From contig JAJXVK010000001.1 in assembly GCA_021782155.1 (NCBI GenBank), positions 1-37,828 of the forward strand: a stretch of 37,828 nt of DNA, written 5' to 3'. This document shows, in pieces, positions 32,715-34,583 of the stretch. Positions within the stretch are counted from its first letter, which is position 1. Every line of letters starts with the position of its first letter. The notes beneath the pieces are model-generated. The model searched no databases. It worked only from the letters and a program-made list of their open reading frames with translations, and was not told the origin of the DNA. Made by a program: the position numbers and the translations under genes. Origin of the DNA: Pseudomonadota bacterium. Its GTDB lineage: Bacteria > Pseudomonadota > Alphaproteobacteria > Sphingomonadales > Sphingomonadaceae.

Positions 32715-34067
32715 ATGACCAAGGCCATTACACTCCGGCGCGGCAAGCGCCAGGCCGCGCTCGTCGCGGTAACTGCCCTGGCCATGGCGCTCGGCGGCTG
32801 TGGCGTGCTCGGCAAGGGCAAGATGCGCACGACGCCAACGATCGGCAAGCGCGAACCGGTCCTTTCGCGGATCGAATCGGGCGCGACGGTCGACGATGCG
32901 ATCGCGTCGATGGCGGTGGTGCTGCCGCCGCCCGCCGAGAACGCCCAGTGGGCGCAGCCAGGCGGGTCGGCCAGCAAGTCGTACGGCAATCTCGCGCTCG
33001 CCGACGCGCCGCAGCGCGCCTGGACCGCAAGCATCGCCGGATCGAACAAGCGCCAGCGCCTCGCCGCCTCGCCCGTCGTCGGCAACGGTTCGCTGTTCGT
33101 GTACGATACCGCCGGCGTGATCCACGCATTCGACGCGAAGAACGGCGGCCGCCTGTGGAGCGTCTCGTTCCATAGCAAGGCCAACACCAACGCCCTGTTC
33201 GGCGGCGGCGTTTCCTACGCCGACAACCGCGTCTATGTGACCACGGGCCTGGGCGAGGTCGCCCAACTCGATGCCGCCAGCGGCAAGGAGCTGTGGCGGG
33301 TGCAGACCGGCATGCCGCTGCGCGGATCGCCAACGGTCGCCTATGGCGCGGTCTACGTGATGACGCAGGACAACCAGATCCTCGCGCTCTCGCTCGACGA
33401 CGGGTCCACGCTGTGGAACGAGAGCGGCGCGCCGGGCCAGACCGGCGTGTTCGGCGTCGCCGCCCCGGCGGTTGGGCAGAGCACCGTGCTGGCCGGTTAT
33501 TCGACCGGCGAGCTGGTCGCCTATCGCTACGAGAACGGCCGCCAGCTGTGGAACGACGCGCTGGCGCGCACCAGCATCGCCACCAGCGTTTCCACGCTGA
33601 CCGACATCGACGCCGATCCGATCATCGATTCGGGCCGGGTCTTTGCGCTCGGCCAGGGCGGCCGCATGGCGGCCTACGAACTGGTGACCGGCCAGCGCAT
33701 CTGGGAACTGAGCCTTGCAGGCATCTCGACCCCGGCGGTCGCGGGCGACTGGATTTTCACGCTGACCGACCAGGACAAGCTGCTGTGCATCGCCAAGGCC
33801 ACCGGCAAGGTGCGCTGGGTGACGCAGTTGCAGAACTGGGAAAATGTCAGGAAGAAGAAGGGGGCGATCTACTGGACTGGCCCGGTGCTCGCCAACAGCC
33901 GGCTGTGGGTGGCGAACTCGCGCGGCGAGATCGCCTCGGTCTCCAGTGCTGACGGCACGGTCCAGCCGTTCACGCGCGTGAAGGACAGCGTTTCGCTCGC
34001 CCCGGTCGTCGCGGGCAGCACGCTCTACGTGCTCGACGACGGCGGCCACATCACCGCCTGGCGCTGA
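32715..34067 (+). CDS. bamB: Outer membrane protein assembly factor BamB
   Basis: BamB is a lipoprotein of the BAM complex that assembles beta-barrel proteins in the outer membrane. From ATG 32715 the protein is 450 residues, with lipobox ALGGC (Cys29). It is followed by an eight-bladed propeller of PQQ-like repeats, visible as recurring blocks such as LFVYDTAGVIHAFDAKNGG, LGEVAQLDAASGKELW and LCIAKATGKVRWV. The ATG at 32715 has AGAGGAG about 8 bp before it; a GTG at 32685 overlapping the YfgM stop is an alternative. In relatives der (engA) often follows; here a gene remnant follows instead. Confidence 0.93.
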   Translation: MTKAITLRRGKRQAALVAVTALAMALGGCGVLGKGKMRTTPTIGKREPVLSRIESGATVDDAIASMAVVLPPPAENAQWAQPGGSASKSYGNLALADAPQRAWTASIAGSNKRQRLAASPVVGNGSLFVYDTAGVIHAFDAKNGGRLWSVSFHSKANTNALFGGGVSYADNRVYVTTGLGEVAQLDAASGKELWRVQTGMPLRGSPTVAYGAVYVMTQDNQILALSLDDGSTLWNESGAPGQTGVFGVAAPAVGQSTVLAGYSTGELVAYRYENGRQLWNDALARTSIATSVSTLTDIDADPIIDSGRVFALGQGGRMAAYELVTGQRIWELSLAGISTPAVAGDWIFTLTDQDKLLCIAKATGKVRWVTQLQNWENVRKKKGAIYWTGPVLANSRLWVANSRGEIASVSSADGTVQPFTRVKDSVSLAPVVAGSTLYVLDDGGHITAWR

Positions 34068-34074
34068 CGCGGCA

Positions 34075-34101
34075 GCGCCGGCCCCGGGAAGCGGCCGGCG
34101 C
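34075..34101 (+). terminator. Strong GC hairpin after bamB
   Basis: GCGCCGGCC (34075-34083) and GGCCGGCGC (34093-34101) form a perfect 9-bp stem, 8 bp after the bamB stop. No T-tract follows, so it may be a factor-dependent terminator, a 3' stabiliser, or simply GC-rich DNA at a deletion junction. Confidence 0.4.
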
Positions 34102-34583
34102 GCCCACGCGCGAATCGCCTGCGTCTCATGGTCGACCCCGGCCTGCGCGCTGGAAAGGTCGGGCGCGGTCGCGGAACAGGCGATGGTCCAGGTGGCGAGG
34201 TCGGCGGTCACTTCGCGCTTGGACAGCCCGCGCACGGTCACCGTGCTCTAGTGGTCCGATTCTGACATTCGATACCGTCTGCGGCTCGGTCGCGTTCGAA
34301 TGTCAGATTCTCTTCGGACCACTAGAAACTTATGATTCTAGTAGATTTTACGATTTTGACATTTGCAGACCAATCCCAGCCGCCAAGGGATGCAAATGTC
34401 AAAATCAATCCACCAGTGCGCGCGCAACAGACCGTTGCCGAACAGGTAGCCGCCCGCGACCATGCCCAGCGCAAGGATCCCCGAACTGGCCACCCATCGC
34501 AGCGTCGCCGTCTGACGCCAGAACATGCGGGGTTCAGTTCCGGGATCGCCGGAGCTATCGTAAGTGGAATCAGCAGCGTTCAC
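34102..34583 (-). pseudogene. SIMPL (DUF541) domain protein gene, interrupted and truncated
   Basis: The minus strand first encodes a signal-anchor N-terminus (34583 down to about 34417: MFWRQTATLRWVASSGILAL then GMVAGGYLFGNGLLRA). Reading is then broken by a palindromic element (34248-34416), after which the same protein resumes at 34247 with STVTVRGLSKREVTADLATW, TIACSATAPDLSSAQAGVD and HETQAIRAW. This joined order matches SIMPL-domain periplasmic proteins of about 230-250 residues. After about 34100 the similarity stops beside bamB, so the C-terminal three quarters are gone. The gene is therefore broken twice, by insertion and by deletion, and cannot make a working product. Confidence 0.8.
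34248..34416. mobile_element. MITE-like element made of two nested palindromes
   Basis: Palindrome 1 (34248-34325) has perfect 12-bp outer arms CTAGTGGTCCGA/TCGGACCACTAG and perfect 12-bp inner arms TCTGACATTCGA/TCGAATGTCAGA. Palindrome 2 has perfect 16-bp arms (34352-34367 and 34391-34406, core TTTTGACATTTGC). The two share the GACATT core, giving four copies in alternating orientation. The outermost 24 bases of the whole element match as imperfect terminal inverted repeats (18 of 24). It encodes nothing, is A/T-richer than its surroundings and interrupts the SIMPL gene. No clear target-site duplication was found. It is probably non-autonomous. Confidence 0.75.

Follow-up and report, generated by a model that had tools for sequence, protein, structure and literature searches.

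A 169-bp double-hairpin repeat within a decayed SIMPL gene of a member of the Sphingomonadaceae, a probable IS630-family MITE inserted at CTAG

The 169-bp unit at positions 34248-34416 of the window (the whole stretch of 37,828 nt that was analysed here) is very probably a non-autonomous MITE of the IS630 family, which would be moved in trans by an ISAr1-like transposase and inserted at CTAG. A preliminary description, made from the letters of this DNA, had proposed a non-autonomous, MITE-like mobile element, and this view is now supported by further copies, by matching ends of an insertion sequence (IS) and by empty sites. The element is repeated, its ends can be placed, it is inserted at CTAG where the corresponding empty site has a single CTAG, and its ends are like those of an IS found in relatives. 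In the mechanism that we propose, the outermost 25-30 bp would be the recognition ends for an ISAr1-like transposase of the IS630 family, supplied in trans by a 1.15-kb IS. Once bound to both outer ends, the transposase would excise the element and place it into the TA within a CTAG site, and duplication of the TA would then leave CTAG at both ends. As judged from sequence, the acting transposase is probably of the ISAr1-like IS630 type, and the cut-and-paste chemistry is assumed by analogy with other IS630 members for which it is known; published work on ISY100 describes an IS630-family transposase that alone cuts and pastes into TA, with duplication of the TA (PMC2170065). This reading gives a family of small repeats in the Sphingomonadaceae a proposed motor, ends and target site, and makes it nameable and testable.

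The element consists of two neighbouring palindromes, each bounded by CTAG, that are separated by a 12-nt linker. The left palindrome (34248-34325) reads CTAGTGGTCC...GGACCACTAG, and the right one (34338-34416) reads CTAGTAGATTTT...CAATCCACCAG, its final CTAG being CCAG here. The features referred to in the text are as follows.

34248..34416, plus strand: whole element, 169 bp, from CTAG to a mutated CTAG, a probable gene-less MITE (repeat copies in its own genome)
34248..34325, plus strand: left hairpin, from CTAGTGGTCCGATTCTGACATT... to the inner CTAG (inverted repeat, fold, solo copies)
34326..34337, plus strand: linker AAACTTATGATT, 12 nt, joining the two hairpins (length 12-13 nt in 58 of 60 pattern-selected copies)
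34338..34416, plus strand: right hairpin, from the inner CTAG to the outer CTAG, here CCAG (inverted repeat, fold)
34248..34277, plus strand: outer left end, an IS630-like terminal repeat spaced as in the IS (TGACATT core after 15 nt)
34387..34416, minus strand: outer right end, IS630-like terminal repeat (likeness to the ends of ISAr1-like IS)
34248..34251, no strand: left CTAG, putative target site with duplicated TA (Sphingobium empty sites of a homologous copy)
34413..34416, no strand: putative right copy of the target site, mutated to CCAG (from the sequence; ATAG at this place in genome G156)
34067..34241, minus strand: SIMPL (DUF541) remnant, N-terminal 48 of 205 profile positions (PF04402, E 3.4e-7)
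34417..34583, minus strand: signal/anchor region of that SIMPL remnant, lying upstream of the element (alignment with the G156:C1 frame)

A repeat search returned the arms of the right palindrome (34352-34367/34391-34406; 16 nt, 100%), the inner arms of the left palindrome (34258-34272/34296-34310; 15 nt, 93%) and its outer arms (34247-34259/34314-34326; 13 nt, 100%). GACATT or its complement occurs four times, once in each arm. Folded as single-stranded DNA, the 169-bp unit reaches −43.3 kcal/mol (z −8.8), compared with a mean of −16.6 kcal/mol (sd 3.0) for 200 shuffles, none of which was as good as the element. The sequence, the repeats and the fold thus bear out the bounds and the four alternating GACATT copies that had been described before. 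No transposase gene lies within the 169 bp.

The genome from which the window comes is a 2.67-Mb draft in 270 contigs with a completeness of 82%. In this genome the element was found at 24 places (36 match rows, grouped by us), of which 18 cover at least 150 of the 169 bases, three consist of the left hairpin alone (on contigs C166, C101 and C102) and three are other fragments. By our reading, only 8 of the 18 nearly full copies have kept CTAG at both ends, and many of these copies therefore look old. The genus search yielded matches to the element in 27 of 195 genomes at E <= 0.001, and in 21 at 1e-15; since four candidates were scored per genome, copy numbers from this search are lower bounds, and its weakest matches, such as one of 37 nt in G036, may be due to chance. 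The further copies that the preliminary description had suggested looking for thus exist, both in the same genome and in other Sphingomonadales genomes, and the element is not single-copy in all genomes. The exact 25-nt left end was present in 49 stretches among genome contigs, the carriers being titled Sphingobium, Novosphingobium and Sphingomonadales MAG, with one Alphaproteobacteria MAG. BLAST recovered 86 distinct full-length copies, and in 71 of them CTAG is present at both ends. The element was detected in 3 of 72,556 plasmid records, and a search of 50,697 phage records gave no match to it. No open-access PMC text was found that links MITE, IS630 and sphingomonads, an absence that the open-access scope makes weak. 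Based on the present data, we file the element as absent from the sources searched here and as ordinary in kind, namely an IS630-family MITE.

We compared a homologous copy in Sphingobium sp. YR768 (L100:1928-2096) against 94 Sphingobium genomes. The YR768 locus reads CTAG-161 bp-CTAG, whereas six genomes (G609, G548, G580, G492, G573 and G572) have a single CTAG at this place, so that the insertion represents a net gain of 165 bp over the empty site. Empty sites that reveal a target duplication, which had been named beforehand as a way to examine the element, were thus found for this homologous copy, and the clean empty sites all come from this one locus. Because CTAG is palindromic, duplication of TA and duplication of CTAG are inseparable here. 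Genome G617 carries a copy at the same CTAG as YR768 and in the same orientation. With two further copies in G617 it shares 97.6% and 93.5% identity, but with the YR768 copy only 82.6%; the YR768 copy in turn is 94.7% and 93.4% identical to two other copies in YR768. Since the identity is higher within than between these genomes, the simplest and best explanation would be that one CTAG received two separate insertions, homogenisation of an old shared copy being a less likely alternative. Tandem copies of the element in G122 have one CTAG in common, as would be expected if a later copy entered the CTAG that bounds an earlier one. According to a title cited in the ISY100 work, an IS630-associated transposon reportedly transposes preferentially to the TA in CTAG. 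Among the matches listed, no flank-joined empty site was present for the three plasmid copies, and no flank-joined record for one Sphingobium lactosutens copy compared with 347 genomes. When the flanks of 90 loosely matched candidates were joined, the 25 longest joined frames contained no convincing split gene and resembled chance frames or separate adjacent genes.

In the window itself the element lies inside the remnant of a SIMPL gene on the minus strand. The stretch 34067-34241, downstream of the element in the sense of the gene, covers only positions 2-48 of the 205 positions of the PF04402 profile. The upstream piece (34338-34583, minus strand) gave no Pfam match at 0.01 and no NCBIfam match at 0.001; its counterpart by alignment is the membrane-anchor part of an intact SIMPL frame that genome G156 has at the equivalent position. 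This frame, which reads CGGTCGGCATAG between the flanks, is without the element and provides the intact allele that the preliminary description had hoped to find. In G156, 466 nt (940966 and 941433) separate two stretches that adjoin in the window, and the SIMPL remnant, which is also without its other end, is a decayed gene. The claim that the element interrupts a SIMPL gene is therefore correct in that it lies inside a SIMPL remnant, but the gene is itself decayed and its other end is gone, and for the window the element accounts for one interruption of such a gene. The junctions in the SIMPL gene had also been taken to define the ends of the element. This did not hold, since the gene is decayed and the left flank in the window is about 6 nt shorter than that in G156, whose right junction reads ATAG; the ends were set instead by the alignment of copies and by the Sphingobium empty sites. 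The window junction appears compatible with the CTAG rule but is not clean.

A candidate partner was identified in genomes that carry the element. A DDE_3 (IS630-type) match is present in 10 of 16 carrier genomes, 9 of these being above the cut-off, and in four genomes that carry both the element and an ISAr1-like IS (G011, G150, G176 and G122) CTAGTGG and CCACTAG stand about 1.15 kb apart with a transposase gene between them. Hence, a transposase gene with terminal repeats that match CTAGTGG..., the partner that had been sought for the element, occurs in some carrier genomes as an ISAr1-like IS630. This transposase matches NCBIfam NF033545 (transpos_IS630) with an E value of 3.9e-76 and DDE_3 in Pfam, and the nearest named element by annotation is ISAr1. 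The 22 ISAr1-like IS that we examined measure 1149-1156 bp and have CTAG ends; at two loci (L134 and L140) the terminal CTAG and the transposase frame have their last base in common, which places the TAG stop of the transposase within the target site. The element and these IS share CTAGTGG.../...CCACTAG ends, CTAG bounds and similar end sequences, whereas the IS, of about 1.15 kb, encodes its transposase. Five element variants compared with the IS630 loci gave no BLAST match at E 0.01; the likeness is therefore limited to the short ends, and the element did not arise from such an IS by simple deletion.

The consensus of the 22 IS is CTAGTGGATTGATTCCAACGTTTGGTGCCC on the C-side and CTAGTGGATTGATCGGAACGAAAGAGTCCG on the N-side; it was computed with one of them (L141, 1 of 22) offset by 3 nt, while the counts for the ends of individual IS were made with L141 aligned. 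With CTAG excluded, the right end of the element agrees with the C-side consensus at 19 of 26 positions (0 of 200,000 shuffles) and with the N-side consensus at 15 of 26 (23 of 200,000 shuffles). The corresponding values for the left end are 16 of 26 (29 of 200,000 shuffles) and 13 of 26 (654 of 200,000 shuffles). Compared with the better end of each of the 22 IS, the consensus of the element agrees at 19-24 of 30 positions for its right end and at 19-22 of 30 for its left end, and the two ends of the same IS agree with each other at 17-22 of 30 positions. A more distant CTAG-bounded IS630 clade scored 13-19 against the element ends and loci without such an end pair mostly 6-14, CTAG being included in both ranges where present. 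No IS was found with the exact GACATT core in its ends.

These comparisons bear on the possibility that the element is instead a MITE of the IS5 family, similar to MITEPsy1, with a 4-bp target duplication of CTAG (YTAR). A CTAG duplication of this kind would look identical at the Sphingobium empty site. However, the ends of the element match IS630/ISAr1-like ends well beyond CTAG, in a comparison that covered IS630 ends, and we regard the IS5 explanation as improbable. MITEPsy1 of Pseudomonas syringae is, like the element, a MITE that inserts at CTAG; it is 100 nt long, its insertions at CTAG or YTAA are accompanied by a 4-nt duplication, and it differs from the element in that its authors link it to ISPsy2, in being tabled as 'IS5?' and in having other ends with 18-nt terminal repeats (PMC3189936).

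The distribution of element and transposase over genomes was also considered. The genome of the window, with its completeness of 82%, contained no IS630 transposase above the cut-off. The G122 transposase, used as a query, matched 37 of the 195 genomes of the genus search at 1e-30, and 10 of these are carriers of the element. Conversely, 17 of the 27 carriers had no ISAr1-like transposase match at 1e-30, and 27 genomes with the transposase were without a detected element. Co-occurrence in 10 of 27 carriers, as compared to 27 of 168 other genomes, corresponds to a Fisher p-value of 0.016, which becomes 0.055 without G036 (the 37-nt match, probably due to chance), 0.08-0.14 with stricter cut-offs for the element and 0.07-0.09 with the transposase list limited to about 70% identity or more; kinship is ignored in all of these values. 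The transposase is present in 26 of 94 Sphingobium genomes. The association between element and transposase is weak and not robust, and the case for an IS630 motor rests on the ends and the target site rather than on co-occurrence.

A different motor would be required if the element were a REP/BIME-like unit (REPIN), the alternative that the preliminary description had put beside the MITE, in which two REP-like hairpins are moved as single-stranded DNA by a RAYT, a Y1 tyrosine transposase. Paired hairpins with a short linker do look like a REPIN, 7 of 16 carrier genomes contain Y1 transposases, among them six whose frames are RAYT-sized (225-247 aa), and at two G122 loci (L155 and L159) a Y1 element abuts the final 14 bases of the right end of the element. 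Nevertheless, none of the RAYT-sized genes examined was flanked by hairpins of the element (19 Y1 rows in 16 carrier genomes), and the five element variants gave no BLAST match (E 0.01) at these 19 rows with flanks of up to 1.5 kb on each side. At L155 and L159 the Y1 sequence is a short IS200-like fragment, located at a contig end and seemingly inserted into a copy of the element, and the two Y1 matches in the genome of the window look like one IS200-like gene split by another IS. Moreover, the element is flanked by two CTAG copies in place of the single CTAG of the empty site, and its ends match those of a DDE transposon, which makes the REPIN explanation highly improbable.

For the preferred reading, an IS630-family MITE, the internal build of the element is the unusual feature. 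Spacing was counted on the 86 distinct copies found by BLAST, in which CTAG and core were located separately. At the outer ends the TGACATT core follows after 15 nt in 83 of 86 copies on the left and in 80 of 86 on the right, and the IS ends align with these outer ends without gaps. At the inner end of the left hairpin, 74 of 86 copies have a spacing of 20 nt (84 lie within 18-21 nt), at that of the right hairpin 80 of 86 have one of 19 nt (83 lie within 18-21 nt), and an inner-end spacing of 15 nt was seen in two of the 86 copies. The element is thus built from four copies of a transposon end, the inner two being shifted by 4-5 bp. Because the inner two carry 4-5 extra bp, we take the outer pair to be the one that would normally be used for transposition, the inner pair probably not being used. 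Single hairpins also occur as separate copies that end at the inner CTAG, which suggests that the inner ends may sometimes work. The near-constant inner shift of 4-5 bp represents a natural experiment on end recognition in the IS630/Tc1-mariner group. Tentatively, and with less than even likelihood, the element could be a compound MITE in which two half-elements were fused, all four arms bind transposase, the inner pair is shifted by 4-5 bp (about half a helical turn) and binds without cutting, and the whole spreads as one 169-bp unit. If so, the inner ends would tune or titrate the transposase, and the difference between outer and inner spacing would test how an IS630 transposase reads its ends.

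Covariation was analysed in 22 copies that differ by more than 8 letters, drawn from pattern-selected copies with near-consensus outer ends. Of the arm cells, 97.7% pair, and 6 of 49 arm pairs have changed on both sides (0 of 500 shuffles). This pattern may reflect either selection on the hairpin or the maintenance of both arms as the same binding site. That the arms stay complementary as their letters change could also mean that the hairpins have been retained because they act in RNA or DNA (as a terminator, in mRNA end processing or as a small RNA), with spread being secondary. We consider this very unlikely, because the same covariation is expected if both arms are one protein-binding site, and even unstructured sequences can exceed shuffles when they are related. 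Furthermore, no Rfam family reached its gathering score (two miRNA matches being far below), and at one locus two Sphingobium genomes carry a copy while six have the empty site.

GANTC, its middle base varying, occupies positions 11-15 of the C-side end in 22 of 22 ISAr1-like IS and positions 24-28 of the other end in 21 of 22. The motif is found at positions 11-15 of both ends in all five actinobacterial relatives and in the Deinococcus one; of three betaproteobacterial IS, two are without GANTC and no ends were found for the third. The right end of the element is without GANTC and has GATTT there. A role of GANTC in CcrM methylation was considered and rejected, since the actinobacterial and Deinococcus relatives keep the motif and CcrM is not known from those bacteria. 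We treat GANTC as a likely part of the transposase-binding end.

Among known systems, RUP of Streptococcus pneumoniae appears closest in mechanism and CIR of Caulobacter closest in layout (PMC2229807). Like the element, RUP is small, gene-less and multi-copy, with IS630-like ends and a TA target; it is 107 bp long, and IS630-Spn1 is its proposed mover (PMC2229807). Compared by description, it differs in occurring in other bacteria, and the element has two hairpins and four end copies. CIR, known from the alphaproteobacteria Caulobacter and Brucella, shares with the element two inverted-repeat arms with a linker and a terminal TA, and the same review leaves the mechanism of its mobility open (PMC2229807). 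Of the traits that would mark a CIR (two hairpins with a linker, a terminal TA and GANTC), the layout, CTAG and a GATTC are present in the element, in a comparison made by description.

Several other elements were observed near or within the copies. Seven loci (L008 and L019 in the genome of the window; L094, L112, L115, L155 and L159 in G122) include several copies whose right hairpin breaks off at GTCAAA or close to it and gives way to CTGAA(G/C)GACTACC..., with nearly the same junction in both genomes. Together with the Y1 fragments at L155 and L159, these junctions suggest that an IS200-type element has entered the right arm at one fixed position. On G000:C26 (L059 and L060) an IS200-like Y1 gene lies in two pieces about 3 kb apart, with an apparent IS66-type element between them.

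Five loci of G122 (L079, L086, L097, L106 and L107) contain a second small CTAG-bounded palindrome, CTAGAGCAAGATGCGAT...ATCGCATCTTGCTCTAG, which adjoins the element with a common CTAG in L079, L097, L106 and L107. Beside some copies of this palindrome in G122 there is a longer repeat with GGCACGATGCTCTA, which we presume to resemble the rhizobial RIME elements. A separate single-hairpin MITE of about 101 bp, beginning CTAGTGGTTTGAACGCAACAG..., is located at L141:1275-1375 in G122, where it adjoins an IS630 with an open transposase frame, the two having one CTAG in common. At L078 (Novosphingobium Leaf2), L080 and L105 (REEB22) the element is broken at or beside a CTAG by other IS-looking sequence, as if CTAG were a target common to several insertion sequences.
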